Assembly: GCF_001458775.1 (NCBI RefSeq)
Contig: NZ_CZPZ01000032.1
Location: 169,510-230,428, forward strand
From: Candidatus Nitrospira nitrificans
GTDB taxonomy: Bacteria > Nitrospirota > Nitrospiria > Nitrospirales > Nitrospiraceae
Reading direction: 5' to 3'
DNA length: 60,919 nucleotides
Shown here: one piece after another, positions 17,040-47,879 of the stretch
Numbering within the stretch: the stretch's first letter is position 1
Layout: every line of letters begins with the position of its first letter
Position numbers and translations under genes: made by a program
Notes under the pieces: generated by a model
The model's database searches: none
What the model was told of the DNA's origin: nothing
Seen by the model: the letters and a program-made list of their open reading frames with translations, nothing else

Positions 17040-17146
17040 AGTACGGCTGAGCGGGGTCCTGTGAGCTTGATGATATCCAGCAGGGTATGTGCACGGCTGG
17101 TGCGAAGCGGTGAGCGCCCCGCACCAGGTCGATAAGAATTAAAGAA

Positions 17147-17689
17147 TTACTTCGACGAGGCTTGCGCGATGTCCAGCACTTTGACGTCGAAGTGGAGTGT
17201 CTTGCCGGCGAGCGGGTGGTTGAAATCGAGCACCACTGTCTCGTTCTTCACTTCTGAAATCCGCGGAAAGACTTTTTGTCCATTGGCGGTTTTTCCTTCG
17301 AGTTGTGTCCCCACCTTCAGAGAGTCAGGCGGGAGCAGTTTCTTGTCCACCTCCTGAAACGCTTGAGGGTCGACCGTGCCGTAGGCTTCGGGCGGCGTGA
17401 GGGTGACGTTCTTTTTCTCTCCTGTCGCCATGCCTTCGAGCGCCTTCTCCAGTCCAGGAACCACCTCGTGCCGGCCTTGCGTGAATTTCAACGGCTCTCC
17501 GCCCACGTTGGAATCCACGACCGATTGATCGTCCAGCTTCAGTGTGTATTGTAGTGTGACTTGTTTTCCGTGCGAGACTGTCATGGCCGATGCTCCTTTC
17601 TTGGTATCTCCTGCTGAGACACAAGCCGCAGACAGGAACAGAATGACGCTCCAACCGCAGAATGAAGAAAATAGGAATGCGCGTCTCAT
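17147..17689 (-). CDS. Exported FKBP-type peptidyl-prolyl isomerase (SlyD-like)
   Basis: A 180-residue protein with a signal peptide (hydrophobic 4-26, CVSAGD; possibly a lipoprotein at AAC) followed by an FKBP domain of the SlyD arrangement: VTLQYTLKLDDQSVVDSNVGGEPLKFTQG, VVPGLEKALEGMATGEKK, TPPEAYG, then the insert-in-flap region and VLDFNHPLAGKTLHFDV. It catalyses proline isomerisation and chaperones exported proteins. Monocistronic as far as can be seen. Confidence 0.9.
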   Translation of the reverse strand: MRRAFLFSSFCGWSVILFLSAACVSAGDTKKGASAMTVSHGKQVTLQYTLKLDDQSVVDSNVGGEPLKFTQGRHEVVPGLEKALEGMATGEKKNVTLTPPEAYGTVDPQAFQEVDKKLLPPDSLKVGTQLEGKTANGQKVFPRISEVKNETVVLDFNHPLAGKTLHFDVKVLDIAQASSK

Positions 17690-18048
17690 AGGAACCTCCC
17701 TGTGAGAAGTGGGTTGTGTGTAGACCGGAATGGGTCACGGGACGAATGCGAGAGGCGGGCGACCGATTCCAGCCGTAGTTGTGTGGATATGTTTTACGCT
17801 ACCACATGAGCGCACGTGATACTACCCGCAATGTATCGTCCGTTCTAAACGTGAAACAGCGCGAAGAGACGGCGCGTCAAGACGATCGGTGACCAATCCG
17901 CTGTTGTGGGGCCGAGGACGGATTCTGAAATCCATGAAGAAGGTGGTAGGGAGGGCTGATCGGGGTACAATGCGAACGAAGAGGTGTCGAGGGGGCCGTC
18001 CCCTTGGCAAGGGAGATGCGAAAAATTGTCACAGATGTAGGAGGGGGT
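17690..18048. other. Intergenic stretch with no gene seen
   Basis: This stretch separates the divergent FKBP and DUF2934 genes and presumably holds both promoters. Open frames here are short, overlap one another and lack ribosome-binding sites. Confidence 0.4.
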
Positions 18049-18348
18049 ATGGCGCGTCGGGTGAGCGGTGAAAACAGGGCAGCAAAAACTAATGGGCGCA
18101 GCGCATCGGCGGTCAAGGCCGGTGGGACACTTGGCTCCGGCCGAGTTGGTCGGCCGGAAGCGTCTTCAGCCGGATTTCCCAACGGCAGGTCGAAGGATCA
18201 GGCGGAGGAAGGGGAGCCTATGCATCAACGAATCGCCGAACTCGCCCATGCCCTGTATGAGCGAAGCGGGTTCCAGCAGGGGAAAGATGTGGAGCATTGG
18301 CTGGAAGCAGAACGGCAGGTGAAGGCGGCGCGTGGCCTTGCCGCGTAA
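18049..18348 (+). CDS. Small DUF2934 protein
   Basis: A 99-residue protein. The start follows AGGAGGGGG, a near-ideal ribosome-binding site. The first half is a basic, Ala/Gly/Ser-rich linker (MARRVSGENRAAKTNGRSA). The C-terminal 42 residues, IAELAHALYERSGFQQGKDVEHWLEAER, match the DUF2934 motif. The function of the family is unknown; such genes are abundant in Nitrospira and other soil bacteria. A shorter ATG start at 18220 would give the domain alone. Confidence 0.75.
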   Translation: MARRVSGENRAAKTNGRSASAVKAGGTLGSGRVGRPEASSAGFPNGRSKDQAEEGEPMHQRIAELAHALYERSGFQQGKDVEHWLEAERQVKAARGLAA

Positions 18349-18501
18349 CGCATAATAAGGAATCCGGCCTCCTTCCCTCATTGCGTCTGGGCCGTCGATA
18401 ATCCGGTGTCAGCGCGAGATGCCTCCTGTTGAGTGGACTACATGTCATGGCTCGCGGGGTGTCCTCGCTGACGCCGGACCATCGACTCCTTGTGAAATGG
18501 C

Positions 18502-19101
18502 CTATTCTTTCCGCGTGTAGACGATCTCCAGGAACTTCATTTCCTTTTCCTTGCCGTGGGCACCGTACATCTCGAATGTCTGACTGTTGTCGTCAATGAT
18601 TTTCCACAGGGCGCGATGACGCATCTGTCCTCCGCCAGGCTCCGGGTGCGACCCTCGCAACGTGATGGTCTTGCCGTCCGGGCTCGCCGTGCCGTCCATG
18701 AAGAAGATGCCGGTGCCCATCGTATCGATCCAGACCGTGACATATTTCTTTGTCAGGTTGTCATACCCGTCGATGCCGACTCCCGAATAGGGCTGCCCCA
18801 TCATCTGACCGTTGTATTCCTGATAGAGAAATCGTCCGTCGAGCAGCGTCTTCATCTCAGCGGTGCCGGTGGATTCGGTCGGTGGCTTGCCCGGCTCCAT
18901 CCATTCCTTGGTCTGGGTCGTCCAGCTGCCGGCCAATGTCGCGAACAGCTTGTGCGGCTCACCCGGTGTCGCCAGCTTCTTCCAGACGTCCATCATCTCT
19001 TGGGGGTCCATCGGTTTCTCATGCTTCTTCTCTTTCGCGAAGCCAGGCGAGACGGTGAGCACGACGCATAACGTGGTGATTGCTAGAGCTATGAAACGCA
19101 T
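18502..19101 (-). CDS. Exported DUF1579 protein, copy A
   Basis: A 199-residue protein with a signal peptide (MRFIALAITTLCVVLTVSPGFA) and a DUF1579 domain (about 50-199): FATLAGSWTTQTKEWMEPGK, LLDGRFLYQEYNGQMMGQP, WIDTMGTGIFFMDGTASPDGKT and the C-terminal FEMYGAHGKEKEMKFLEIVYTRK. The family has a lipocalin-like beta fold of unknown role. A second copy of equal length lies at 30058-30657 and a broken third at 26105-26472. Downstream of two VOC genes and an SRPBCC gene on the same strand. Confidence 0.85.
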   Translation of the reverse strand: MRFIALAITTLCVVLTVSPGFAKEKKHEKPMDPQEMMDVWKKLATPGEPHKLFATLAGSWTTQTKEWMEPGKPPTESTGTAEMKTLLDGRFLYQEYNGQMMGQPYSGVGIDGYDNLTKKYVTVWIDTMGTGIFFMDGTASPDGKTITLRGSHPEPGGGQMRHRALWKIIDDNSQTFEMYGAHGKEKEMKFLEIVYTRKE

Positions 19102-19158
19102 GGCGGCCTCCTTATAGCTAGGCTATCAAGTCTCGACTGTAGGCTTGTATGCTCCTTG

Positions 19159-19614
19159 TCAGCAGCCCTTCTGTTGCTTCATCCATACTTCGGCGCGCTT
19201 CTTGATTTCTTCGTGAGGCACATCTTCGATATGTGTGTGAATCCACCAATGATTGCCGGAGAAGTCTTTGACGCCGGCGCTGCGGTCTCCATAGAACTGA
19301 TCGCTCGGTTCTCTGACCGAGGTCGCTCCGGCGCGCAGCGCGCGTCGGTACCAGCCATCTGCGTCGTCCACATACAGCGCGACCGTCGCAGGCATCGGCT
19401 TCCATTGGTCGGTGGCTTCACCGATCATCACCATGGAATCGCCGACTTTCATCTCCGCGTGCAGTACCGTCCCGTTCGGACCATCGAGGCGGTACGTTTC
19501 TTTGGCATTGAACGCTTGTTTCAAAAAGTCGATCAACTTCCCCGCTTCTTGAACAATGAGGACCGGCGTCACGGTACGATAGCCATCGGGGATGGGGTTG
19601 ACTTTGGTCGCCAT
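19159..19614 (-). CDS. VOC (PhnB-like) family protein
   Basis: 151 residues. The opening IPDGYRTVTPVLIVQEAGKLIDFLKQAF and the later VLHAEMKVGDSMVMIGEA, VALYVDDADGWYRRALRAGATS and KDFSGNHWWIHTHIEDV are typical of the PhnB-like glyoxalase/bleomycin-resistance (VOC) group. VOC proteins bind a metal or a ligand between paired beta-alpha modules; the substrate here is unknown. One of seven intact VOC genes in the window, and one of four close relatives that share the IPxGYxxxTP opening (19159, 26523, 44514 and the fragment at 43723). Confidence 0.85.
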   Translation of the reverse strand: MATKVNPIPDGYRTVTPVLIVQEAGKLIDFLKQAFNAKETYRLDGPNGTVLHAEMKVGDSMVMIGEATDQWKPMPATVALYVDDADGWYRRALRAGATSVREPSDQFYGDRSAGVKDFSGNHWWIHTHIEDVPHEEIKKRAEVWMKQQKGC

Positions 19615-19645
19615 GGGTCTCTCCTTTCGTTCAACTCATGCCGGC

Positions 19646-20032
19646 TCACCTGCCCGTGCGATGACAGATTTCCAGGCGATTGCCGCTGGGATCCTCGAAA
19701 AAGACGGCATAGTAATTCACATCGTCGTACGACATGGGACCTTCAATGTTCCGTGCGCCCGCTTGTCTGAGAATCGCCGCCAGCCGATCGACTTGTTCTT
19801 TGCTGTCCACCCAAAACGCGACGCGACACTCATTGGCCATATGCGTCGGTGACTCGGTCACCCCGAAAAATTCCGTCGCGCCATCGGTCTTATCGGCCTG
19901 ATACGTCAACCAGTCTGGAAAGGGGGCATAGCGCGTAAAACCGAGCGCGGGCAAGAGCACTTCATAAAATGGTCGTGCTTCGGTGAGGCTCCGCACCCGG
20001 AGATCGATGTGATCATATAGACGCGCCATCAC
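19646..20032 (-). CDS. VOC (glyoxalase-fold) family protein
   Basis: 128 residues: LYDHIDLRVRSLTEARPFYEVLLPALGF at the start, AFWVDSKEQVDRLAAILRQAGARN in the middle and YYAVFFEDPSGNRLEICHR at the end. These give the two VOC modules with the candidate metal ligands His8 and Glu in LEICH. A ribosome-binding site (GGAGGTGA) precedes the start. Possibly transcribed with the VOC gene at 19159. Confidence 0.87.
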   Translation of the reverse strand: MMARLYDHIDLRVRSLTEARPFYEVLLPALGFTRYAPFPDWLTYQADKTDGATEFFGVTESPTHMANECRVAFWVDSKEQVDRLAAILRQAGARNIEGPMSYDDVNYYAVFFEDPSGNRLEICHRTGR

Positions 20033-20322
20033 TCACCTCCGAGTACGTGGTTTTGATCGTAGGATTCAGTTCGATGGTCACGGCGGCACTGGTGGCGACA
20101 GTGCCGCTCTGAAAAACTTCATGCACCGCACCGCTGCGCCCTCTCCAGTCAAACAACGGCCAGCCATCGATACAACTCTCGAAACCTCTAGCCTATGAGG
20201 AGTTGTCCACGATCGCGCCGGGCGACGGCGGACCTGTTCAACCATCTGCCACGGCGTGTAGTCGCAGCTCGCCCTCCAGAAGAATCACTCGGCAAGCGAG
20301 CTTTGTCGATGACTCCTTCGAG

Positions 20323-20772
20323 CTAATCCTTGATGTCCGGTTCGACGAGTCGCGCCAAGTTCCGTAGCGATTCCTGCCAACCCAGATAGCATGCTTCGAG
20401 CGGTATCACCTTCGGAATCCCTTCTTGCTCAACGCTGAGATCCGTGCCGACCGACACTTCCTTGAGCGTGACCGTAACCCGCATTTCTCCCGGCAGATTC
20501 GGATCGTCGAACTTGTCCGTGTAGCGAAGACGCGCATGGGGCGCGAGTTCGAGATACTCGCCGCCGAAGGAGTGACCCTTGCCGGTGGTGAAGTTGGTGA
20601 ACGACATCTTGAATTTGCCTCCGACCCGCGCATCCATCTGATGCATCTTGCCCGTGAAGCCGTTGGGTGGCAGCCACTTGGTCATGGCATCGGCATCGAG
20701 GAATGCCCGATAGACCTTTTCCGGCTTGGCGGCCAAGACCCGATGCAGGCGGACAGTATTGTTTGTGGACAT
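20323..20772 (-). CDS. SRPBCC/AHSA1-domain protein
   Basis: 149 residues of the START-like AHSA1 type: VRLHRVLAAKPEKVYRAFLDADAMTKWLPPNGF at 7-39, then GGKFKMSFTNFTTGKGHSFGGEYLEL, LPGEMRVTVTLKEV and the C-terminal LGWQESLRNLARLVE. These proteins form a hydrophobic cavity for small ligands; the role is unknown. Such genes commonly travel with VOC, DoxX and YCII genes, as here. The 290 bases between it and the VOC gene at 20032 hold no recognisable gene. Confidence 0.88.
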   Translation of the reverse strand: MSTNNTVRLHRVLAAKPEKVYRAFLDADAMTKWLPPNGFTGKMHQMDARVGGKFKMSFTNFTTGKGHSFGGEYLELAPHARLRYTDKFDDPNLPGEMRVTVTLKEVSVGTDLSVEQEGIPKVIPLEACYLGWQESLRNLARLVEPDIKD

Positions 20773-21177
20773 CGGCGCTTCTCCTTTTCGTCCAGAGATT
20801 GACGATGAAAACTGTTCTTACTCAATTGTCGAACGAGAGACCGGAAGATCGACATCCCCTAACCGGCGGTCATTCAATGTTTGAGGCAATGTATCAGGCG
20901 AGTTGCAAAGCTACGAGAAGGAACAGTCATGGGCAAGCCGAAACGGCTCGTCGGGATCGGAGTCAATGGGTATCTGTTTGATTTTCATGTCGCCCACTCC
21001 TCATATCTGGACGCGCCGGGGGGATCGTACCAAGGTTGGGCACCTTGCTCTCGGGGGTTCCCTAGCCTGCTGCTTTTATCAATGTCCGATCGAATCCAGA
21101 GGTTTCACCAGTGTCATCACCGGTTTGCCGAATGGGACAATCCACGAGAAAGAATACATCCGGGAAGGAGTCACAAT
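20773..21177. other. Intergenic stretch with no gene seen
   Basis: The frame of the basic protein at 21178 is open back to 20881 and contains another ATG at 20929, but that upstream part has irregular composition and no family resemblance. The downstream start has the better ribosome-binding site. Confidence 0.35.
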
Positions 21178-21387
21178 ATGCCCAATAACAAACAACGTAA
21201 GAAGAAAGGCGGACGGAACAAATCCAAGAAGCTGAAGGCCATGCGGCTCTCCATCGAAGAGCGTCGGGCCAATCGACGCCGTCCTTCGCGACGAGGCCCG
21301 TTCAGAAAAGGTCTCTCGGACCAGCCGGACATTCAAGAATTCAAGCCTGGCGCCTCCAACGACCGATACAGCCGCCAGGCCGAGTGA
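21178..21387 (+). CDS. Small, very basic protein of unknown function
   Basis: 69 residues from an ATG preceded by GGAAGGAG. The N-terminal 45 residues are dominated by Lys and Arg (MPNNKQRKKKGGRNKSKK, then IEERRANRRRPSRRG), suggesting nucleic-acid or polyphosphate binding. It has no hydrophobic segment and no Cys pair. I do not recognise a family. Confidence 0.5.
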   Translation: MPNNKQRKKKGGRNKSKKLKAMRLSIEERRANRRRPSRRGPFRKGLSDQPDIQEFKPGASNDRYSRQAE

Positions 21388-21461
21388 GCTCACGTGGCGC
21401 ACAAGCTAGGTGGAGGATCAAATCTTCTACTTTTGGATGGTGCTAAAACCTACAACACGAT

Positions 21462-21740
21462 ATGCACATTGCTAGAATGATATGGCTCATCTGCTTAGTC
21501 GTCCTCTTTGGATTCCGGCCATCGGTAGCCACTCCTGTCGAATCCTCCATGGTGGTTGATCCCTTACCGCCACAGCCGATTCCACCCGCTCCTTTACCAA
21601 AACCGGAGCCGATTCCACCGTCGCCGGTCCCTGCTCCGAGGCCGGAGCCGTTGCCCCCTTCTCCGGTTCCGCCTCCCAAGGCCGAACCCATTCCTCCGGC
21701 TGAGCCACGACTGCCGCGGACGCCGTCGATTCCCAAATAG
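21462..21740 (+). CDS. Short exported proline-rich protein
   Basis: 92 residues: a signal peptide or anchor (MIWLICLVVLFGFRPSVA) followed by about 60 residues of a repeating Pro-Glu-Pro-[IL]-Pro-Pro pattern. Such runs usually span the periplasm or cell wall. No structured domain follows. The repeat may inflate the open frame, but the signal peptide makes a real gene likely. Confidence 0.5.
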   Translation: MHIARMIWLICLVVLFGFRPSVATPVESSMVVDPLPPQPIPPAPLPKPEPIPPSPVPAPRPEPLPPSPVPPPKAEPIPPAEPRLPRTPSIPK

Positions 21741-21858
21741 GATGCGAACACTATGTGCTCCCTTGAATCAAGAGCGCCGATATCGCGGAATCAGTCGGGA
21801 TCTCACGGTTCATCCAGACGTCGATGTTGGGCTACTGGAATGGAGGTGTAATATTGTC

Positions 21859-23127
21859 ATGTCACGCATCTCAGTACGCCGAAATCGACAACGTGTCACA
21901 CCAACCGCAGAGGGAAGGAGTTGGCATGTGGAACGGCAACGACACCATCAATGGAGGATGTTGGCAGCGGCCGGCGCAGGGGCCACATGTATGTACTTGT
22001 TCGATCCGCGAACGGGGGCACGCCGCCGAGCGCTGATTCGAGCTCGGCTTGCGCGATCGGCGCGACGGATACAGGATGGAATGGCGACGACGTGGGGTGA
22101 TGCGCGCAACCGTGGGCAAGGGCTCCTTGCCGAGGTCAAAGCGTTGTTCGACCGCCGATTGGTCGACGATACTATTCTTGTCGAACGGGTGCGAGCCAAA
22201 CTAGGAGGTCTGGTTCGATATCCTCGATATATCGAGGTTGAGGCTGAACAGGGCCGAGTCGTGCTGCGAGGCCGGATTCTTTCGGGCGAGGTGGACCGCT
22301 TGCTCGATGGTGTCGGCCGTGTCAACGGCGTAAAGGACGTTGAAAACCGTCTGGAACTGCATGAGAAGCTCCGTGACGTTCCAGGATTACAAGGCGATCA
22401 CGGTCATGTTCTAGGCGGTGATCGCTTTGAACTCCGGCAAGAAAACTGGTCACCGACTGCGCGGACGTCAGTCGGATTGGCCGGCACCGCGCTGGCTGTC
22501 CACGGAATCATGCGGCGGGATATATCCGGCATGGTACTCGCAGGACTTGGCTCGGGTGCCGTCCTCCGCGCCTTCGTCAACCGACCATGGAAACAGATCA
22601 CCGGACTGTGGGCCGGGCATCGAGCTGTCGATGTGAATAAGACTATTCGTTTCGCGGCTCCGATCGAGAACGTGTTTGCATTCTGGGCACGGTATGCGGA
22701 GTTTCCACAATACACGACGCATGTGCGGGAAGTGCTCGAACAGGGGGAAAGGCGTTCGCGCTGGCGAGTCATCGGACCGGCGGGGATCGAGACGGTCTGG
22801 AACGCCGTGATCACAACCTATGTTCCCAATCGGGAAATTGCCTGGCGGACGGAGCCTGACTCACTCGTGCAACATGCCGGAGTCTTGAAATTTCATGACA
22901 ACGAAGACGGCACCACGACCATGCACCTGAGGATCACCTACAATCCTGTCGCCGGCATCATCGGCCATGGCATCGCGCGCTTGATTGGAGGCGATTTCAA
23001 AACGTTGCTGGAAGAAGATTTGCTGCGTATCAAGACGGTGCTCGATGACGGGGTGATTCCACGCGATGTGCAACAGCGCGCCTCTCAGCCCAAAACAGAG
23101 CAATTCGAGCGCTATACCACGGATTAA
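21859..23127 (+). CDS. Membrane protein with BON and SRPBCC (polyketide cyclase-like) domains
   Basis: 422 residues. Near the N-terminus is MLAAAGAGATCMYLFDPRTGARRRALIR, a membrane segment and basic stop common to this family. A BON domain follows (about 95-165: VRAKLGGLVRYPRYIEVEAEQGRVVLRGRI then GVKDVENRL), a second hydrophobic region (about 200-230), then an SRPBCC domain (about 250-395) beginning VNKTIRFAAPIENVFAFWARYAEFPQY. BON domains bind phospholipid membranes; the SRPBCC part would bind a lipid-like ligand. GGAGGTG lies ten bases before the ATG. The frame is open far upstream as a shadow of the proline-rich gene. Confidence 0.85.
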   Translation: MSRISVRRNRQRVTPTAEGRSWHVERQRHHQWRMLAAAGAGATCMYLFDPRTGARRRALIRARLARSARRIQDGMATTWGDARNRGQGLLAEVKALFDRRLVDDTILVERVRAKLGGLVRYPRYIEVEAEQGRVVLRGRILSGEVDRLLDGVGRVNGVKDVENRLELHEKLRDVPGLQGDHGHVLGGDRFELRQENWSPTARTSVGLAGTALAVHGIMRRDISGMVLAGLGSGAVLRAFVNRPWKQITGLWAGHRAVDVNKTIRFAAPIENVFAFWARYAEFPQYTTHVREVLEQGERRSRWRVIGPAGIETVWNAVITTYVPNREIAWRTEPDSLVQHAGVLKFHDNEDGTTTMHLRITYNPVAGIIGHGIARLIGGDFKTLLEEDLLRIKTVLDDGVIPRDVQQRASQPKTEQFERYTTD

Positions 23128-23320
23128 TACGATATGGGCCTAGACCCGCTTCTTGAGCGTGCCGGCGAGGCGTTGGCGCCTGTCGGCTTCGGCAAGAGCC
23201 TGGTTCCCTGGAATTTTGGCTGTGGACGACGTGGCGAACACCATTCTTCTGCCGCCGGAGCGAAGGGCTTGGCACTCTGGATCATTGAATAACTTCGGAG
23301 GAGAAAAGGGAGAATTGCCT

Positions 23321-23979
23321 ATGTGCGGATATCGATGCCTCAGGCCCTCGGCGCGATTTCTCCTCGCGAGCCGGTCGGGGATGGTCGTTCTCGCGCTGCT
23401 GGTGATGGTAGGCGTGCCCACATGGAGCGTCGCGGCGCTCCAGCAAGGATCGGAGTCTGCGCTGGCCGTGGTCAAGGCGACGCTTTCCGACGTGTTTGCC
23501 ATACTGGACGATCCGAAGTTGCGAGAGTCGGAGAAACGGCGGCGCATTGAAGAGATTGTGGCGACCAGGTTCGACTATCGAGAAATGTCCAAACGAACGC
23601 TGGCCTCGCACTGGGCCCGTCTGACCGAGACGGAACGAACGGAGTTCGTCGACTCGTTTAAAATGTTTCTCTCGGACCGGTATGCGGTAAAAATTCGTGA
23701 CTATGCGGGGAACAGGTCGAATATCTCGGCGAGCGGTTGGAAGGTGACTATGCGGAAATTCGGACCAAACTGGTCTCCAGCAAGACCAATTATCCTCTCG
23801 ATTATCGTCTGATCAAAAAGGACGGAAGATGGTATGCCTATGATCTCGTGATTGATGGGGTGAGTCTGGTAAAAAATTACCGAAGCCAATTCGACCGGAT
23901 CATTCGAGCTGATTCCCACGAAGAACTGGTCCGGCGAATGAAAAATCGCAGCCTGGCCGAAGAACAGAAAGGAGAGTAA
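23321..23979 (+). pseudogene. MlaC-like phospholipid transport protein, broken by one frameshift
   Basis: The first part (signal peptide, then ALAVVKATLSDVFAILDD, RFDYREMSKRTLASHWARL, FVDSFKMFLSDRYAVKIRDYAG) and the second part (GDYAEIRTKLVSSKTNYPLDYRLIKKDGRWYAYDLVIDGVSLVKNYRSQF) are the two halves of one MlaC/Ttg2D protein. They lie in different frames. The break is at the G run at 23706-23710: one extra G would restore EQVEYLGERLEGDYAEIR. MlaC carries phospholipid between outer- and inner-membrane Mla components. It may be a true pseudogene, an assembly error in a homopolymer, or slippage. No mlaD, mlaE or mlaF is adjacent. Confidence 0.8.
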
Positions 23980-24068
23980 TGATGGCGATCGCCCTCCAAT
24001 CCGGTTCCCAGAAGGCCATCGATCGAGCCAAGAAATCGGCCCTGTTTTTGCGTCGAGAGTTTGCATGA
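23979..24068 (+). pseudogene. Short 29-codon frame after mlaC, possibly a truncated gene
   Basis: The ATG overlaps the mlaC stop (TAATG) and follows GGAGAG, so it looks like a genuinely coupled start. After 29 codons it ends in ATGA, overlapping the pyrophosphatase start. The peptide (MMAIALQSGSQKAIDRAKKS...) is not recognised. It may be the stump of a longer mlaC-operon gene cut where the pyrophosphatase-CHAD block begins. Confidence 0.4.
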
Positions 24069-24601
24069 CCACGCCATTTGAGAACATTCCGCCTCGGGAA
24101 CCCAAAACAGGACTGGTAAACGTCGTCATCGACACGCCCCGCGGGAGCCGTAACAAGTTCAAGTTCGACGAACAGCTGGGCTGTTTCAAGCTGTCGCGCA
24201 TACTGCCTGCCGGACACGTCTTTCCTTACGATTTCGGCTCGATACCCGGCACGCGCGGTGAAGACGGCGACGCGCTCGACGTGCTCGTGGTCATGGAGGA
24301 GCCGGCATTCCCGGGCTGCCTCATCACGGTGCGCCTGATAGGCGTCATTGTCGCATCCCAGACCGAGAAGGGGCGCACGATTTCCAACGACCGGCTCGTC
24401 GGTGTGCCGCAGACCATGGCCAACAAGCCTGCGATGCGGGAGCTTTCGGAGCTCGGAACAACCAGGCTCAAGCAGATTGAGCACTTTTTCATTTCCTATA
24501 ATGCTGCCCAGAACCGGCGATTCCAACCATCGCGCCGCCTCGGCGCCGCGCAAGCGGAGCGCATCCTGCGCCGGGCGATCGCCGCCGGCGCGCCAAGGTA
24601 G
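24065..24601 (+). CDS. Family I inorganic pyrophosphatase-like protein
   Basis: 178 residues. The signature DGDALDVLV (about 69-77) has the three metal-binding Asp of family I, and earlier NKFKFDEQLGCFKLSRILPAGHVFPYDFGSIPGT matches the family. It hydrolyses pyrophosphate to two phosphates. The later part is less conserved, and the sequence resembles the divergent pyrophosphatase-like group often next to CHAD genes. The ATG overlaps the preceding stop (ATGA) with a weak ribosome-binding site. Higher GC than its neighbours suggests transfer. Confidence 0.85.
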   Translation: MTTPFENIPPREPKTGLVNVVIDTPRGSRNKFKFDEQLGCFKLSRILPAGHVFPYDFGSIPGTRGEDGDALDVLVVMEEPAFPGCLITVRLIGVIVASQTEKGRTISNDRLVGVPQTMANKPAMRELSELGTTRLKQIEHFFISYNAAQNRRFQPSRRLGAAQAERILRRAIAAGAPR

Positions 24602-24605
24602 GGGC

Positions 24606-25478
24606 ATGAAGCGACAGGCTGCGAATGGAACCGTACAAGCTGCAACCGTGCGCGAGGAATTGCTGCGCCACGTCGAGACGGCGGTCAAGGCGCTCCGCGC
24701 GCGTGATCCTTCAGACGAGCAGATCCATCGCGCGCGCAAAGAACTCAAGCGGGCCCGCGCGAATCTGCGTCTACTGCGGGACGCAGTCGGCAACGCGGCG
24801 TACATCCGTGAGAACGCCGCATTGCGCGACGCCGCGCGGCCGCTGAGCGGAGTGCGCGACGCTGCGGTTCTTCGCGAGACGGCAGATACGATGACCAGCG
24901 GGGTGGGGCGCGGCGCCCGTCGAAAATTGCTCCTGAAAGTGCGCCGAGCGCTGGAACAGGCCCGGCGTGAGGCTCGCGCGGAATTGCGCGTGATGCATGC
25001 CGCCAGGGAAAGTGTGGCGCGCCTCGTTGCCGCTGCCGCGCGCATGCGCAAGTGGCGGCTCGATCAGTCTGATAGGGCATCGGTGTGCAGGGGATTGCAA
25101 AGGGTCTACCGGCGAGGACGCGAAGCCCTTGCGATCGCTTGCGCCGATCCCACGACCGAAAATCTTCACGAGTGGCGCAAGCAAGTGAAATACCTGGGCC
25201 AAGCGATGGCGGTATGGAAGGTACACGAGGCGAACGGCGTGAAGAGACTTGTCGAGCGCGCGGAGAAGGTGGCCGACCTCCTTGGCACGGACCACGATCT
25301 CGCAGTCTTCGAAGGGCGATTGGAGAAGCTCGACTCACCTCATCCGATCCGACCCGCCATTACCCGCGATATCGGCCGCCGACGGCGCGATCTGCAAGAC
25401 AACGCGCTGAAGAAGGGCCGCCGGCTTTTCAAGGTAACACCTCGCTCGTTCGTCCGTGGAATCGCACCACGGGGCTGA
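24606..25478 (+). CDS. CHAD domain protein (polyphosphate-binding)
   Basis: 290 residues of helical CHAD domain with the conserved basic-His pattern: IHRARKELKRARANLRLLRD, a repeat-like second half HEWRKQVKYLGQAMAV, and LADLLGTDHDLAVF-like segment (VADLLGTDHDLAVFEG). CHAD domains bind inorganic polyphosphate through these His/Arg/Lys residues. It follows the pyrophosphatase by four bases, so the pair is an operon. Rich in Arg and Ala with high GC, unlike the flanking genes. Confidence 0.88.
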   Translation: MKRQAANGTVQAATVREELLRHVETAVKALRARDPSDEQIHRARKELKRARANLRLLRDAVGNAAYIRENAALRDAARPLSGVRDAAVLRETADTMTSGVGRGARRKLLLKVRRALEQARREARAELRVMHAARESVARLVAAAARMRKWRLDQSDRASVCRGLQRVYRRGREALAIACADPTTENLHEWRKQVKYLGQAMAVWKVHEANGVKRLVERAEKVADLLGTDHDLAVFEGRLEKLDSPHPIRPAITRDIGRRRRDLQDNALKKGRRLFKVTPRSFVRGIAPRG

Positions 25479-25548
25479 TGCCCATGATATGGCGCTTGTT
25501 CATGCGGCTGGCGTTGCCAGTGGGAGCGGCAATGATCAGGAATCGCAT
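25429..25548 (-). pseudogene. 39-codon frame coupled to the VOC gene, possibly a truncated gene
   Basis: The ATG at 25548 lies three bases after the VOC stop, with GGAGG seven bases upstream, so translation should start here. The peptide opens MRFLIIAAPTGNASR, vaguely like YCII proteins, and then runs antisense into the end of the CHAD gene before stopping. It may be the stump of a gene cut by the arrival of the pyrophosphatase-CHAD block. Confidence 0.35.
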
Positions 25549-25551
25549 GTG

Positions 25552-26055
25552 TCAACCTCCTTCTTGCCCTTCATAGGCTTGCCGCACACGTTGTAGATCT
25601 GGCTTGCTCATTTGAAGGATCGCGGCCATGGCGCGCTCCACCTTCGCGGTGTCCTTGTCTCTCAACATCTCATCCCAAGCGGGCACCACGATTTGCCAGG
25701 ACAGGCCATATTTGTCCTTCAGCCAGCCGCAGGGCCCTTCCTCGCCGCCGTCGGAGAGCTTACTCCACATCTCATCGATTTCCGTTTGCGAATTGCACTT
25801 CACCATGAACGAGACGGCTTCGGTGAATTTGAAGATGGGACCGCCGTTCAAGGCCACGAATTCCTGGTTTTGGATCTCGAACGTGACGGTCATTACCGAT
25901 CCTTTCGGTCGTCCGGAGACCTGGGCGCCGGCTTCTCCATAGCGTGTGATGACTCCCATTTTCGAATTCTGGAAAACCGACACGTAGAACTTCGCGGCTT
26001 CCTCGGCCTTGTCATCGAACCAAAGGCAAGGGGTAATTCGTTGTATGGTCGGCAT
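25552..26055 (-). CDS. VOC family protein (PhnB/3-dmu-9-3-mt type)
   Basis: 167 residues from the ATG at 26055 (MPTIQRITPCLWFDDKAEEAAKFYVSVF). The motifs VTFEIQNQEFVALNGGPIFKF, SFMVKCNSQTEIDEMWSKL and GWLKDKYGLSWQIVPA-like ending (SWQIVVPAWDEML) are typical of the group formerly annotated 3-demethylubiquinone-9 methyltransferase. That enzyme activity is not implied. Related in type to the VOC gene at 50115. The substrate is unknown. Confidence 0.87.
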   Translation of the reverse strand: MPTIQRITPCLWFDDKAEEAAKFYVSVFQNSKMGVITRYGEAGAQVSGRPKGSVMTVTFEIQNQEFVALNGGPIFKFTEAVSFMVKCNSQTEIDEMWSKLSDGGEEGPCGWLKDKYGLSWQIVVPAWDEMLRDKDTAKVERAMAAILQMSKPDLQRVRQAYEGQEGG

Positions 26056-26104
26056 CGTGCCTCTCTTTCCTCTTCTCACATGGATATGTTGAATGAGGAC
26101 GCGA

Positions 26105-26472
26105 TCATTCTTTCCTGGTATAGATGATCTCCATGCCCTTCATTTCCTTCTCGCCCTTGTGAGCCCCGTACATCTCGAAGATCTGGGTATTGCTGTCGAC
26201 GAGTTTCCGGATCCCCCGATGGGTCATATGTACTCCGCCTGGTTCGCCATGGCCTCCCTTGAGCGTGATGGTCTTGCCGTCGGGGCCGGACGTCCCTTCC
26301 ATGAAGAACATTCCCGTGCCCATCGAATCGATCCAGGTCGACACATATTTCTTGCGTAAATTGTCATGGCTGGTCGTCCCCGATGCCCGAATAAGGCCGG
26401 CCCATCATGTTGCCGGTGAATTCCTGTTGGAGAAACCGTCCGCGTGGTAATGGTAAGAGACATGACACGCAT
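26105..26472 (-). pseudogene. Decayed third copy of the DUF1579 gene
   Basis: The C-terminal 79 codons (WIDSMGTGMFFMEGTSGPDGKT ... EMYGAHKGEKEMKGMEIIYTRKE) clearly match the copies at 18502 and 30058. Upstream, GRFLQQEFTGNMMGRPYSGIG is in another frame and ends at a stop near the joint, and the whole N-terminal half with the signal peptide is missing. The gene has therefore lost its 5' part and gained a frameshift. Confidence 0.8.
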
Positions 26473-26522: not shown

Positions 26523-26987
26523 TCAGCCGCAGGCTTTTCGTGCTTCCTTTTGTAATTCGTCCGGATTCACGTCACGAACATGTGTGGCGACCGACCACTG
26601 ATGCCCAAAGGGATCTTCGAGTACGCCGTAACGATCCCCCCAGAACATGTCGGCGACCGGCATCATGATTGTCGCGCCGGCTGCCACGGCTTGGTTGAAG
26701 ACAGATTCCACATCCTGGACATAGAGATGGATGGTGACGGGTGAACCTTTGAGCGACTTCGGCCCGAGCGAGTTGTGATCGGGAAATTCATCGACGAGCA
26801 TGACGGGAGAGTCGCCGATTCGGATCAAGGCATGGAGGAGCTTTCCTTCCGGCCCTGGTACCTTGCCCAACTCCACGGCATTGAAGGCCTTCTTGTAAAA
26901 TTCAATGGCCTTGGCTGCCCCGGCGCACACCAAGTGCGGGGTCACGGTATGCATCCCGTCCGGAATCGGCTTGACCGGTTTATTCAT
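26523..26987 (-). CDS. VOC (PhnB-like) family protein
   Basis: 154 residues: IPDGMHTVTPHLVCAGAAKAIEFYKKAF, LLHALIRIGDSPVMLVDEFP, VTIHLYVQDVESVFNQAVAAGATI, and EDPFGHQWSVATHVRDV. It is closely similar to the VOC proteins at 19159 and 44514. An AAAGGAGA ribosome-binding site precedes the ATG. Candidate ligand-binding residues are the paired His/Glu of the two modules; the substrate is unknown. Confidence 0.88.
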   Translation of the reverse strand: MNKPVKPIPDGMHTVTPHLVCAGAAKAIEFYKKAFNAVELGKVPGPEGKLLHALIRIGDSPVMLVDEFPDHNSLGPKSLKGSPVTIHLYVQDVESVFNQAVAAGATIMMPVADMFWGDRYGVLEDPFGHQWSVATHVRDVNPDELQKEARKACG

Positions 26988-27195
26988 TGCGTTCTCCTTT
27001 CAATTGCTATGGTTGGAAGGTTTTCGGAATACACGTCGTAGGCGGTTTCTTTCTCCTTCGAGGTGTACCGTGACATATGAATAGTCGTCCCGATTGGTTC
27101 AGATCGACCGCCGAATCTATCCATGCACTCGTCGGAGGAGATCGCGGGACGACGCGACGATTTCGTTTAGATTTGTTTCGAGCGCCCAGTGGCCT

Positions 27196-31466: not shown

Positions 31467-32915
31467 TTAGCCCTTCCCGGCTTCGACGACTTGGGCCGTC
31501 GGCAGCTGTTGAGCGGAATTGTCGGGCGACCAGCCACCTCCCAGCGCTTTGTACAGTTGCACGACCGACGCCAGGAGAAACCGGCGTGTGCTGGTCCAGG
31601 CGAGTTCCGCCTCAAACAGGCTTCGTCGGGCCACGAGCACGTCCAGATAGTTCGCCAGCCCGCCCTTGTAGCGGAGTTCCGCCAGCTTCAGGGCCGACTG
31701 CAAGGCGGTCACTTGTTGCTGTTGCGCGTCGCTCTGGCGGCGGGCCGTCCGCACCGCGATGAGCGAGTCCTCGACTTCGCGAAAGGCGGTCAACACCGTC
31801 TGTTGGTACTGCGCCAAGGCTTCTTGGCTTTGGGCCTCGATCGCTTCTTGCTGGAAGCCCAGAATTTGCGCGTTGAACAGCGGCGCGGCCAGGCCGGCCC
31901 CGAACACCCCGAAGGAGGACGCCTCCGTGAAGATCAGCGATAATTCGGGATGCGCGAGCCCCGCCAACCCGGTCAAGGTGATGCGGGGGAAGCGTTCGGC
32001 CTTGGCGACCCCGATCCGGGCGGTGACGGCCGCCAACTGGCGCTCCGCGACCAGCAGATCCGGCCGCCGCTGCAGGAGCTCCGACGGCAGCCCCGCCGGC
32101 ACGTCCGGGGGAATCACTTGCTGGTCCAAGGCCCGCCCGCGCGCGACGGCAAACGGGGTGCGCCCCAGCAAAAGGCTCAGGTGGTTCTCCGCTTGCACCA
32201 TCTGCCGCTGGAGTTCCGCCGCGCGGGCCGCGGCATTCGCGCGCTCCGCCTCAAACTGATCCGCGTCCAGCTTGGAGGTCATCCCTTGCCGCAACCGCGC
32301 CTGGGCGATCCGCACCGACTCTTCCCACGACTGGAGCGTCCGCTCCGCGATGTCGAGCTGAAGATCGAATTGGAGCACCGTGAAGTAGGCTTCCGCGACC
32401 GCGCTGACCAGTTGGATCGTCACGGCGCGGCGGTTCTCTTCCTTGGACAACAGCTCGGCGCGCGCCGCTTCGTTCGTGCGCCGCACGCGCCCCCACAGAT
32501 CCACCTCCCACGACAGGTTGCCGAGCAAGTAATAATTAAACGGACTGGCAAAGCCGGGAAACAAAAACACCGCGCTGCGCCCGGCCGGCGCGTTCGCGGC
32601 CACCGACAGTTGCGGCAACCAGTCGGTGCGCGCGATCAGCGCCCGCGCCCGAAATTCCTCGACGGTCGCGACGGCCCGCCGGAGATCGTTGTTGTCCGCG
32701 AGCGCCGACCGAATGAGTTGCTGCAACTGCGCATCGTGCAGAAGCTCCCACCAGGGCAAGTTGGCCACCGAGGGGAGATCCGCCGGCCCCTCCGCCATGC
32801 GAAACCGGTCCTCCACCTCCGTCGGGGGCCGCCGGTAGTCCGGCCCCACGGCGCAGGCAACGAGCAAGCAGGATCCTATGAACAGACCGACCGCGCGTAT
32901 GATGCTCTCACTCAT
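31467..32915 (-). CDS. Outer-membrane efflux lipoprotein (OprM/NodT family)
   Basis: About 482 residues. Signal MSESIIRAVGLFIGSCLLVAC ends in a lipobox, so Cys21 is lipidated, as in OprM. The start of the mature part (AVGPDYRRPPTEVEDRF) and two repeated TolC-type helical hairpins (each beginning about LQQLIRSALADNNDLRRAVATVEEFRA and LLQRRPDLLVAERQLAAVTARIGVAKAE) are typical. It forms the trimeric outer-membrane channel for the RND pump encoded upstream. ATG at 32927 overlaps the previous stop (ATGA); the ATG at 32915 has GAGGAAAG and gives the shorter signal peptide. Confidence 0.92.
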   Translation of the reverse strand: MSESIIRAVGLFIGSCLLVACAVGPDYRRPPTEVEDRFRMAEGPADLPSVANLPWWELLHDAQLQQLIRSALADNNDLRRAVATVEEFRARALIARTDWLPQLSVAANAPAGRSAVFLFPGFASPFNYYLLGNLSWEVDLWGRVRRTNEAARAELLSKEENRRAVTIQLVSAVAEAYFTVLQFDLQLDIAERTLQSWEESVRIAQARLRQGMTSKLDADQFEAERANAAARAAELQRQMVQAENHLSLLLGRTPFAVARGRALDQQVIPPDVPAGLPSELLQRRPDLLVAERQLAAVTARIGVAKAERFPRITLTGLAGLAHPELSLIFTEASSFGVFGAGLAAPLFNAQILGFQQEAIEAQSQEALAQYQQTVLTAFREVEDSLIAVRTARRQSDAQQQQVTALQSALKLAELRYKGGLANYLDVLVARRSLFEAELAWTSTRRFLLASVVQLYKALGGGWSPDNSAQQLPTAQVVEAGKG

Positions 32916-32923
32916 TTCTTTCC

Positions 32924-33217
32924 TCATCCGACGGAAGACCTATCCGGTTCTGACCGGGTGATCTCGTTCACAAGGTGACCGATGCAACATCCTGTGGCAA
33001 TCAATTGCGCGCCTTCTTTCCACATCCGCTTCAAGAGGAGCTTGCCGTCCTCTCCCACAAAGGTGACGTTCGTGAGATCCACGACAAGAGGGAGTCCATC
33101 AGCCGGTCGGGTGGTTCGCCACTCATGCTCCAGTTCACCGACCCACGGTCCGGTCAGGCTGCCCTCCAGTCTGAGTCGCACCGAGTTTCGATTCTTCTCC
33201 GCGGTAATCTTCAGCAT
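32924..33217 (-). CDS. STAS-like (anti-sigma antagonist fold) protein in the RND operon
   Basis: 97 residues: a beta strand MLKITAEKNRNSVRLRLEGSL, then LPLVVDLTNVTFVGEDGKLLLKRMWKEGAQL, the STAS core. SpoIIAA-type proteins have a phosphorylatable Ser in the DxSG segment; here the loop reads FVGEDGKLLL, with acidic residues and no Ser, so it probably cannot be phosphorylated. Its stop overlaps the next gene's possible ATG (ATGA). It lies between the pump and the outer-membrane factor genes, an unusual place for a STAS protein. Confidence 0.7.
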   Translation of the reverse strand: MLKITAEKNRNSVRLRLEGSLTGPWVGELEHEWRTTRPADGLPLVVDLTNVTFVGEDGKLLLKRMWKEGAQLIATGCCIGHLVNEITRSEPDRSSVG

Positions 33218-33241: not shown

Positions 33242-36200
33242 TCAGTTCTGTGCTCCAACCGGGAGCAGTTCTGCATCATCGGCCTCGAGCGCGATCTCTT
33301 CAGGCTCCAGATCCGGCTGGTGCTGGGCCGCGATCAGCGAGTAAAACACCGGCACAACGAACAGCGTGAAGAGCGTGCCGACCGTCATGCCGGTGACCAA
33401 CACCATGCCGATGCTGTTGCGGGCGGCCGCGCCGGGTCCTGTCGCCAGCACCAACGGGAGATGGCCGAAGACGGTGGCAGCCGAGGTCATCAGCACCGGC
33501 CTCAGTCTGGTCAACGAGGCTTCGCGCACCGCCATCGCCTTGGCGAGCCCGCGTACTTGGAGTTGATTCGCGAACTCCACGATGAGAATGCCGTTCTTCG
33601 CGATCAATCCGACCAGCGTGATCAATCCCACCTGCGAATAGATATTGATCGTCGTCAGGTCCAGGAAGCTGAAGACCAGAGCGCCGGAGATGGCAAGCGG
33701 CACGGATCCCAGCAGAACGATCAACGGATCGCGGAAGCTTTTGAATTGGGCGGCCAGCACCAGATAGATCAGGACCACGGCAAAGCCGAGCGTCACGGTA
33801 AGCGCCGCTCCCTCCTGGCGCAGTTGCCGCGATTCGCCGGCATAGTCGAGGACGATGCGTGACCCCCCTGCCGCCGCCGCGGTCTCGAGGACACGCAATC
33901 CTTCTTCCTTCGTCACGCCCGGTTTCACGCCGCCGAAGATCCGAACGGAGTTGCGCTGTTGAAAGCGGTTCAAGGTGCGAGGCGCGGTGCTCGTCTCGAT
34001 GTGCGTGAACGTGGACACCGGCACCAGCTGGCCGCCCGGCGTCTTGATCTTCAAATCGAGCAGGGGACCGACGGTCGCGCGGTCGCTGTCCCCGAGCTGC
34101 GGGATAACTTTGTAACTGCGATCGAAATAGTTGAACCGGTTGACATAGGCCCCGCCGAGCATGGTGCCGAGCTCCCGGCCGACGCCCGCCAGATCAAACC
34201 CTAAGTCGGCCAGACGCTCGCGGTCGAGAATGACACGCGCCTCAGGGAGATCGATTTTGAGATCGGTGTCCACGTACATGAACTTGCCGCTTTGCCAGCC
34301 GGCCCCGAGCACGGCGCCGACCGTGTCGAGCAATTGCTCAGCCGGCAGGTCGCTTTCCAGCACCAACTCGACATCGTACTGACCGGGCGTCGGCAAGGGC
34401 GGGTCCAATCGGGGAAACACGCGCAGTCCGGGCACCTGCGAGACGGCGCCGTAGACTTCGCCGTACATCTGCTCGGTGGAACGCGTCCGTTCATGCCAGT
34501 CCTTCGCGACCAATCCCCCGAAGCCACCCCAGGCGGTTGTGAGCCCCCATGTGAATTCCGTTTCAGGGAATGCCGTGATCGCTCGTACGATCTGTAGGTG
34601 CTCACGGTTCGTGGCCGCCAACGTGGAGTCAGGCGATGCTTCGAAGAAAAGGCTGATGTGGCTCTGATCCTCCACGGGGGCGAGTTCTTGGCGCGAAAAG
34701 AGATACAGCGGCCAGATTGATGCCATGATTAAGAGTGCCGCCGTGACGATGCCCCAGCGCATGGTGAGCGCCCCGTCGAGCAGTTTCGCGTACAGACGCC
34801 GCACCTCTTCGAAGCGTCGATTGACGAAGGCCGTCAGCCGGCCTTCTTTTCCTTGAGGATGCACGAACCGGGAACTCATGACCGGCGAGAGCGTGATCGC
34901 GACGACACCGGACAGGACCACGGCGACCGCAAGCGTGATGGCAAATTCCAGGAACAGGGACCCGGTCAGCCCGCCTTGAAAGGCGATGGGGGTATAGACC
35001 GTCGCGAGGGTAATCGTCATCGCGATGATCGGGCCGACGAGCTCGCGCGCGCCGATCAACGCCGCCTCGATTCGCGATCGCCCCAGACGCACATGCCGTT
35101 CCACGTTTTCAACGACGACGATCGCATCGTCCACGACCAGCCCGACCGACAAGACGATGGCGAGCAGCGTCAGAAGATTGAGACTGAAGCCGAACGCGAA
35201 CATGAAGATAGCGGCCCCGATCAGCGACACCGGCATGGCCACGAGCGGCACGAGCGCCGTGCGCACCGATCCCATGAAGAGAAACACCACCACCGCGACG
35301 ATGAGAATCGTTTCCGACAACGTCTTGGTGATTTCCGCCAGCGCGTTTCGCATGAACATCGTGCCGTCCCACACGAGTTTCATGTCGATGTCGCTCGGCA
35401 GGGTCGGCCGGATGCGTTCCATCTCGTCGCGGAGCCGGTGCGCGATATCGATCTCGTTCGTGCCCGGCACGGGCCAGATCCCAAGATACACACCCTGAGC
35501 CTGGTTGTACTTTGCGACCATGTCCGCTTCTTCGGCCTCTCGCTCGACCTTCGCAATATCTTTTAGCCGGACGATGGCGCCGCCCCTGTCCGCGACGATG
35601 AGCTCCTCGAATTCCTGGGCCGATCGCAGGTCGGTATTCGCGAGCAGGTTGATCTGGGCGAAGTTGCCCTTCGTCCGTCCCACCGCGGCCAGATAGTTGT
35701 TCCGGAGCAGCGCGCCTTGCACATCACCCGGCGAGAGATTGAACGAGGCAAGACGGTCCGGATCGATCCAGATGCGCATGGCGATCTGACGGCCTCCCTC
35801 GATGGTCACCTTCTGCACGCCGGACAGCGTCGAGAATTGCGGTTGCAACGTGCGCAGGAGCCAATCAGTGAGAGCCGGGACCGGGCGTTCCGTCGACGTG
35901 AAGCTGAGATAGAACGAGGCATACGGCCGGTCGGCCCTCTGGACCTCGATGACGGGTGGTTCGGCTTGAGGCGGCAATTCGGCGCGCACCTGTTGGAGCC
36001 GTGCCGTGACTTCGGCGAGGGCCGCCGTGCTGCTGTGGTTCAACTTCAAATGCACGGTCACGGTACTGACACCGGCTCGACTCGTCGACTCCACGTAGTC
36101 GACGCCGCTGATCGCGGAGACCACCCGCTCGATCGGCGTGCTGAGGAACCCGCGCACGGTCTCGGCGCTCGCGCCGTAGTAGACGGTTGTGATGATGACC

Positions 36201-36334
36201 GATGAGCTTTCGATCTTCGGATATTGCTGCACCGGCAGGGTCATGAGCGCCCGCCATCCTGCAAGCATGATGACAAGATTGATGACCACGGCCAGGACCG
36301 GATGTTTCACGAAGATATCGGTGAAGGATCGCAT
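33242..36334 (-). CDS. RND efflux pump (HAE1/AcrB family)
   Basis: A 1,030-residue inner-membrane pump of the usual length. It begins MRSFTDIFVKHPVLAVVINLVIMLAGW, has the porter-domain half with PVQQYPKIESSSVIITT, and contains the transmembrane proton-relay Asp pair in SVGLVVDDAIVVVENVERH. The second half has LITLVGLIAKNGILIVEFANQ. It uses the proton gradient to export substrates through the fusion protein and the outer-membrane channel. Drug or metal specificity cannot be told. Confidence 0.95.
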   Translation of the reverse strand: MRSFTDIFVKHPVLAVVINLVIMLAGWRALMTLPVQQYPKIESSSVIITTVYYGASAETVRGFLSTPIERVVSAISGVDYVESTSRAGVSTVTVHLKLNHSSTAALAEVTARLQQVRAELPPQAEPPVIEVQRADRPYASFYLSFTSTERPVPALTDWLLRTLQPQFSTLSGVQKVTIEGGRQIAMRIWIDPDRLASFNLSPGDVQGALLRNNYLAAVGRTKGNFAQINLLANTDLRSAQEFEELIVADRGGAIVRLKDIAKVEREAEEADMVAKYNQAQGVYLGIWPVPGTNEIDIAHRLRDEMERIRPTLPSDIDMKLVWDGTMFMRNALAEITKTLSETILIVAVVVFLFMGSVRTALVPLVAMPVSLIGAAIFMFAFGFSLNLLTLLAIVLSVGLVVDDAIVVVENVERHVRLGRSRIEAALIGARELVGPIIAMTITLATVYTPIAFQGGLTGSLFLEFAITLAVAVVLSGVVAITLSPVMSSRFVHPQGKEGRLTAFVNRRFEEVRRLYAKLLDGALTMRWGIVTAALLIMASIWPLYLFSRQELAPVEDQSHISLFFEASPDSTLAATNREHLQIVRAITAFPETEFTWGLTTAWGGFGGLVAKDWHERTRSTEQMYGEVYGAVSQVPGLRVFPRLDPPLPTPGQYDVELVLESDLPAEQLLDTVGAVLGAGWQSGKFMYVDTDLKIDLPEARVILDRERLADLGFDLAGVGRELGTMLGGAYVNRFNYFDRSYKVIPQLGDSDRATVGPLLDLKIKTPGGQLVPVSTFTHIETSTAPRTLNRFQQRNSVRIFGGVKPGVTKEEGLRVLETAAAAGGSRIVLDYAGESRQLRQEGAALTVTLGFAVVLIYLVLAAQFKSFRDPLIVLLGSVPLAISGALVFSFLDLTTINIYSQVGLITLVGLIAKNGILIVEFANQLQVRGLAKAMAVREASLTRLRPVLMTSAATVFGHLPLVLATGPGAAARNSIGMVLVTGMTVGTLFTLFVVPVFYSLIAAQHQPDLEPEEIALEADDAELLPVGAQN

Positions 36335-37503: not shown

Positions 37504-37575
37504 GAGAACAACCTCCAACGTGCTTGTACCCGAGCATCATGTAGACCTCCGATCAATGCTATGTTTTGAGGGAAC

Positions 37576-47585: not shown

Positions 47586-47879
47586 ATCGGGAATTTCGGG
47601 AAGATGTGTCATCGGCTTGGGTGGCAGAAAAGCTGACGGGCAAACGAAGTCGATTGCATCTCGATCTCTATACGAACGACCGGGAGTATGATAGTGGAGC
47701 CGTTGATCAAGATCGGAGCGACTCGGTGTTCATGGCGATATCGTCCAGGTGACGATTTCGTGGTGTCAGCAGACCCCGATGGCAACCTCATCTGTGTGGT
47801 TCAGACCTAGGTTTCGACTCGGGTCGTCATGTCCGAAAACGGCGAGCAGGCCCTCGAAGGCGATAGTTATAATCTTCCC

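Follow-up and report, generated by a model that had tools for sequence, protein, structure and literature searches.

A Pyrophosphatase and CHAD Gene Pair Within a Partly Decayed 6.4 kb Block of Candidatus Nitrospira nitrificans

The window analyzed here is a stretch of 60,919 nucleotides (G000:C32:169510-230428) from the genome of Candidatus Nitrospira nitrificans, which is designated as G000. Two adjacent genes in this window encode a protein of the inorganic pyrophosphatase family (PPase) and a stand-alone CHAD domain protein. The initial annotation described them as a pyrophosphatase and CHAD pair inserted between two broken genes. The pair is real, and both genes are intact on the + strand. 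It forms an intact portion of a stretch of about 6.4 kb that has partly decayed, and was not simply dropped between broken genes. The pair, the block, and the native flanks are as follows.

24065-24601, + strand: PPase gene, 178 amino acids, intact, PF00719 (3e-30)
24606-25478, + strand: stand-alone CHAD gene, 290 amino acids, intact, PF05235 (8.1e-26), putative polyphosphate binder
19127-25533: block missing at the site in the loci of eight relatives, about 6.4 kb, edges approximate
17147-17689, - strand: FKBP-type peptidyl-prolyl isomerase gene, native left flank, present also in relatives without the block
18502-19101, - strand: DUF1579 gene, native left flank in the genomes G007 and G029
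25552-26079, - strand: 3-dmu-9_3-mt (VOC-type) gene, native right flank

The PPase stop and the CHAD start are separated by 4 bases in the window; G007 and G090 show a 4-base overlap of the two genes instead. The PPase scores 105.5 bits against PF00719 (curated cut-off 23.5), and the CHAD protein covers positions 4-227 of the 228 in the PF05235 profile, a whole-domain match. This PPase is the second paralogue in G000. The housekeeping PPase is encoded at G000:C17, which rules out the pair as the sole soluble pyrophosphatase of this genome. PF00719 is matched in 61 of 79 genomes of the genus, and the match in G073 is only its broken copy of the pair.

Both flanks were searched in the 79 genomes, with the top few candidates per genome (mostly three or five) scored, and seven loci with right-flank DNA (G029, G007, G016, G012, G018, G101, and G091) were compared whole to the window. 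Window positions 17144-19115 and 25565-26036 are separated by 129 bp in G029, and positions 17144-19113 and 25575-26036 by 173 bp in G007. The FKBP gene is the left neighbour in G016, G012, and G018, where the spacing from 17832-17867 to 25568-25591 is 188, 170, and 78 bp, respectively; altogether, the flanks lie 78-188 bp apart in five genomes. A DUF1428 gene sits between the flanks in G101, and the order in G091 is FKBP-DUF1428-VOC. At an eighth locus, G001:C239, a truncated VOC gene is found 111 bp from FKBP. The left homology stops at 19126 (G029) or 19138 (G007), and the right homology restarts at 25565 (G029) or 25552 (G007). In the first seven loci, no blastn match (E 1e-3) has its centre inside 19147-25550, and tblastn searches for mlaC, PPase, CHAD, DUF4010, and universal stress protein (USP) were likewise negative. 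Between the flanks, a piece of 68 bp (79%) is common to G007 and G029, and another of 44 bp to G012 and G018.

Judged from these alignments, the unit of presence and absence at this locus is the stretch of about 6.4 kb (19127-25533), not 24065-25478 alone. The empty site that was expected in relatives is indeed there, for this larger block. The proposed insertion footprint stands in so far as the site is unoccupied in relatives and the right edge falls near the one first drawn, and fails on the size of the unit, about 6.4 kb rather than 1.4 kb. A 1.4 kb insertion bounded by two stumps is ruled out by the flank spacing in relatives, together with the antisense course of the right frame described below. 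The VOC fragment of G001 indicates that the site is a recurrent place of gene turnover. In this genome, which may be the closest relative by DNA, only a fragment of the VOC gene is left beside FKBP (L156, 606-775). Further right in the window, a DUF1579 gene is apparently split (26105-26344 and 26224-26472, - strand), and the 79-amino-acid frame fits profile positions 78-155 only.

The pair recurs as a unit in the genus. The window PPase is matched at 74% identity or more in 4 of the 79 genomes: G000, G007, G090, and, frameshifted, G073. A CHAD relict without PPase was noted in G059. Among the copies, DNA homology sets in at most 20 bases from the PPase start and stops where CHAD ends, and the neighbourhoods differ among the carriers. 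In G007, the pair is preceded by DUF1579 and followed by a Gly/Pro-rich/DUF4142/OsmC stretch. G000 contains at C35 the order of this G007 site without the pair (84% and 72-82% identity), with the homology resuming about 40 bp past the CHAD stop of G007. In G091, whose rpoB is nearly identical to that of G090, no such PPase was found, only a 45% match over 38 residues that is also present in G090; the G091 locus is not collinear with that of G090 and offers no clean unoccupied counterpart. The frameshifted PPase of G073 (L073, 7822-8368) adjoins an open CHAD gene. Near the pair in G007 is an acetolactate-synthase-like gene, named from its sequence, lying in several frames (L074, 12530-14197), and an open relative of it is found near the pair in G073 (L073, 4070-5755).

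Two short open frames at the edges of the pair had been regarded as the stumps of genes cut by an insertion.

23979-24068, + strand: 29-codon frame, the left stump; no relative found; judged to be a chance frame or a short coupling frame
25429-25548, - strand: 39-codon frame, the right stump; begins MRFLI behind a ribosome site and runs on in antisense across the DUF4010 remnant and into the end of CHAD

Both frames exist, but neither was confirmed as evidence of an insertion. The left frame begins on the mlaC stop, and its ribosome-site-like lead consists of the final mlaC codons. Searches of this frame against Pfam and NCBIfam gave no match, and no relative was found among the loci compared (best other E 0.26). 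It is not a boundary either; the block reaches left to about 19127. In the right frame (120 bp), 50 bp run antisense to the end of CHAD, and another 42 bp (25492-25533) to the DUF4010 remnant. Read in frame, it does not represent a broken host gene. A crude ribosome-site motif is carried by 55 window frames of 25-60 codons. A strong ribosome site, AAGGAGG, with the MRFLI start is located just past the VOC stop (25540-25575, - strand). This site and the first five or so codons (MRFLI) may have belonged to the start of a host gene that was cut or lost. No host gene beginning MRFLI was found after the VOC gene, the match in G093 falling in an unrelated gene. YCII-like genes starting MRFM are present in similar clusters.

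The raised GC content of 24065-25478 was borne out: it is 62.0% in the PPase gene and 64.6% in the CHAD gene, against 57.5% for the window. GC of 62-67% is also observed in four other window open reading frames (ORFs), at 31467-32927, 33242-36334, 36373-37518, and 47829-49325, and the pair is only slightly GC-richer than its own locus in G007, G073, and G090. The GC at third codon positions is 0.765 for PPase and 0.701 for CHAD, within about 1.3 standard deviations of the value for 52 ORFs of the window (0.659 +/- 0.080), a set that includes some shadow frames. Codon usage was ranked in a set of 45 genes, obtained from the 52 ORFs by removing nine shadow, broken, or uncertain ones and adding the pair. 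Counted from the least typical, PPase is 30th and CHAD 23rd. Foreign codon usage of the pair is thus ruled out. Typical codon usage had been named by the initial annotation as an outcome speaking against insertion, and it is what was observed.

The rest of the block consists of the following genes and remnants.

19657-20030, - strand: glyoxalase-like stretch, common to G059 and G073; an open gene in G073, open frame here not established
20323-20772, - strand: AHSA1 (SRPBCC-type) gene, nearest match 88% in G001
21556-23127, + strand: BON and polyketide-cyclase-like gene, true start uncertain
23146-23289, + strand: USP remnant, C-terminal part with internal deletions; intact in the same place in G059
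23321-23979, + strand: mlaC-like gene, frameshift near 23707-23737
25492-25533, + strand: DUF4010/MgtC-like 3' remnant, the last 14 or so codons; intact gene in G059

The two pieces of the window mlaC match positions 2-88 and 99-165 of the MlaC profile. The gene is open in G059 and G073, and a sequencing error is possible as the cause of the frameshift. The DUF4010 remnant matches the 3'-terminal part of the G059 gene at 90% identity (E 2e-9). In G059, the order is USP, mlaC, a CHAD relict with a stop, DUF4010, DUF1428, and VOC; in the window, it is the USP remnant, the broken mlaC, PPase, CHAD, the DUF4010 tail, and VOC. In G073, PPase-CHAD, AHSA1, mlaC, and the glyoxalase gene are found within about 5 kb. 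The DNA of 19116-23127 is matched in at least 25 of the 79 genomes, its own included, mostly through AHSA1, with the best match (88%) at G001:C69. As the order of the block is shared with G059 while the nearest AHSA1 is in G001, the block looks like a mosaic. It is a set of small stress-type genes that has been reshuffled and has partly decayed, perhaps put together in steps. A USP gene near the pair in G007 is 76% identical to that of G059, and G016 also has a USP gene; the stretches examined in G024, G084, and G016 contain no mlaC, PPase, or CHAD.

The CHAD protein is likely to be a polyphosphate binder, as judged from its residues. Passages of PMC6537752 on CtCHAD name H253, R256, R260, and R296 as the residues contacting polyphosphate. 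In the window protein, H41, R44, K48, and R84 show the same spacing (+3, +7, and +43) and are invariant in the four Nitrospira copies; the contacts were mapped by spacing, not structure, and K48 is Lys for an Arg of CtCHAD. A search with two peptide patterns yielded nine loci, two from Nitrospira and seven from elsewhere. PPase adjoins CHAD in three of the seven (L082, L083, and L084). CHAD was not matched in L081, a contig of 3.4 kb, nor within about 5 kb on each side in L086, L087, and L088. In L082, a betaproteobacterial contig, a PPK2 gene (8e-108) lies upstream of PPase-CHAD, and this order supports a polyphosphate role.

In the PPase, D67, D69, and D72 are kept in all 11 aligned members of the clade, and R45 in seven. 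The window protein has K31, R45, and Y145, and is changed at K33, F57, N108/R110, and N146; the aligned positions are those which we take to be the canonical catalytic residues. The scores against the NCBIfam diphosphatase models are all below the cut-offs (84.1 of 200, 70.6 of 246, and 26.5 of 247 bits).

Among known systems, the closest are the CHAD proteins, or phosins. According to passages of PMC6537752 and PMC10892726, stand-alone CHAD genes frequently share operons with genes for polyphosphate enzymes, and ppk-CHAD linkage occurs in Acidithiobacillus. The window CHAD is likewise stand-alone, keeps the His/basic spacing, and lies beside a phosphate enzyme, and L082 adds PPK2; its partner, in contrast, resembles the family I pyrophosphatases. 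The term "pyrophosphatase" is absent from the main text of both papers. The window PPase shares the family (PF00719; best solved chain by sequence, 2prd) and the aspartate triad with family I inorganic pyrophosphatases, whereas its clade has several changed canonical positions and it is carried in addition to a separate housekeeping enzyme. One paper deals with CHAD, polyphosphate, and inorganic pyrophosphatase together, and in its available text the CHAD and pyrophosphatase genes are separate. No published PPase-CHAD pair was found in the literature searched, which mostly does not cover subscription papers, and no publication joining Nitrospira with the CHAD domain was found there. Nothing relevant turned up among the papers listed on the active site of family I pyrophosphatases, or on transfer and universal stress proteins in Nitrospira.

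Related PPase genes are also present in stress-type clusters on plasmids from bacteria of soil and plants. In Bradyrhizobium and Mesorhizobium B2-1-8, a 32-46% identical PPase is accompanied by a ferritin-like gene; on an Acidisarcina plasmid, by DUF3147, YsnF/AvaK, and ferritin-like genes; and on a Clavibacter plasmid, by USP, CrcB, and OsmC genes. The plasmid of Mesorhizobium AR02 carries a related PPase without such stress-type neighbours. Neighbours of the plasmid PPase in L120, L147, and L149 include ferritin-like, DUF3147, YsnF/AvaK, CsbD, and cysteine hydrolase genes. CHAD is annotated in none of the five plasmid stretches, for which the gene table is incomplete, and the plasmid search with the window CHAD returned one record.

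We lean, with some reserve, towards the reading that the polyphosphate-related pair is a cassette from a reshuffled pool of stress genes, inside a block of about 6.4 kb that was gained in this lineage and later decayed. The pair would have been drawn from a pool of small stress-type genes reshuffled among Nitrospira chromosomes. The block lies between genes that are adjacent in relatives, and most probably entered this lineage by some form of recombination, in a single event or stepwise; it is possible that the pair arrived later, inside an older block. Deletions and the frameshift would then have decayed the block and left the pair intact. The conserved basic residues of CHAD would bind polyphosphate and hold or present it, and the PPase-fold partner, probably expressed from the same message, would cut phosphoanhydrides there, either pyrophosphate or short polyphosphate ends.

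Several observations weigh against this reading. In G001, AHSA1 occurs in the same region but across the VOC genes, with DUF1579 and the 28.4-29.9 kb gene as neighbours. The stretch 19151-19628 is found elsewhere in G024, about 6 kb from an intact USP gene, and part of it accompanies USP at another place in G084. These matches in G001, G024, and G084 led us to abandon the idea that the block came whole, in one clean import from a genome like G059. The block is 78-83% identical to G059, compared with 82.6% for rpoB; as this is no higher than rpoB, a recent donor is not visible. The inter-flank sequences of G016 and G101 match no other locus. No tRNA was found in the window, no repeats flank the block edges, and no recombinase was recognized among the block proteins put to Pfam, which did not include every frame. 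Judged by recombinase, tRNA target, and terminal or direct repeats, the block is not recognizable as a mobile element. On the side of function, the 11 aligned members of the PPase clade show E to K (10/11), Y to F (11/11), D-x-K to N-D-R (11/11), and K to N after the conserved Y (10/11). The PPK1 core domain was not found in G000, a genome given as 99.77% complete. It is present in six of nine genomes searched, G073 and G101 being the others without it, and two of the four pair carriers, G007 and G090, have it. Without a PPK1 match, a plain polyphosphate-granule account is harder to sustain for this organism, barring PPK2, which was not searched genome-wide, or another source. Lastly, the CHAD tree, which omits L082, does not reject the rpoB topology (AU 0.138), and a G000+G007/G073+G090 topology is also retained (AU 0.428). 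It rejects (((G000,G007),G090),G073) (AU 0.0097), and the best tree lacks a G000-G007 pairing; as a test of transfer it is uninformative. The earlier proposal of a transferred polyphosphate module keeps in its favour the occurrence in 4 of 79 genomes, the differing contexts, the unoccupied G007-type site in G000, and the PPK2-PPase-CHAD order in L082; gain rather than loss is an inference, and the CHAD tree leaves it unconfirmed.

That tree result would also suit vertical inheritance with repeated loss, in which USP-mlaC-PPase-CHAD-DUF4010 was ancestral, near VOC genes, to the group of G000 and to G059/G073. This is a tenable alternative to which we give less credit. The G059 cluster also adjoins DUF1428 and a VOC gene homologous to window 26529-27001, and G059 and G000 can be seen as different partial deletions of one set. 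In the rpoB tree, which includes 23 of 30 genomes (four had no match and three partial loci only) and does not contain G001, G000 groups with G007/G029/G088, and G059/G073 are in a separate clade. About three separate losses within the G000 group would then be needed, no block remnant was found at the site in the relatives examined, and the pair of G007 is elsewhere, at a place unoccupied in G000. The version of the initial annotation, in which a lone 1.4 kb PPase-CHAD element broke two host genes, is very improbable. It accords with the raised GC, with the homology between Nitrospira copies being limited to the pair, and with the G007 pair being flanked left and right by collinear sequence. 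The locus difference of about 6.4 kb contradicts it, as do the ordinary codon use, the left frame without a relative, and the right frame, mostly antisense to the CHAD end and to the DUF4010 3' end that follows the CHAD relict in G059. Whatever the origin of the block, the partner might not be a plain pyrophosphatase: a CHAD-linked enzyme acting on polyphosphate or another phosphoanhydride, or a non-catalytic partner, is conceivable, though we consider it doubtful. The clade-wide changes at canonical positions, the low NCBIfam scores, and the housekeeping PPase elsewhere in G000 point that way, while the fully kept aspartates and the PF00719 score, far above its cut-off, speak against it.

The direct comparison of flanks supersedes the tempting insertion footprint of short open frames at a GC step. 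If the cassette reading is true, the occupied site of G007 and the unoccupied one at G000:C35 would provide a clean site pair for the movement of small units in Nitrospira. It may be, although we regard this as unlikely and speculative, that a CHAD-linked clade of PPase-fold proteins with a re-built active site acts on a polyphosphate-bound substrate, and moves between bacteria as a compact cassette that lacks a recombinase of its own and settles at different chromosomal sites, sister species included. As a lead, the pyrophosphatase clade with altered positions next to CHAD is the most useful, and one that is readily tested biochemically.

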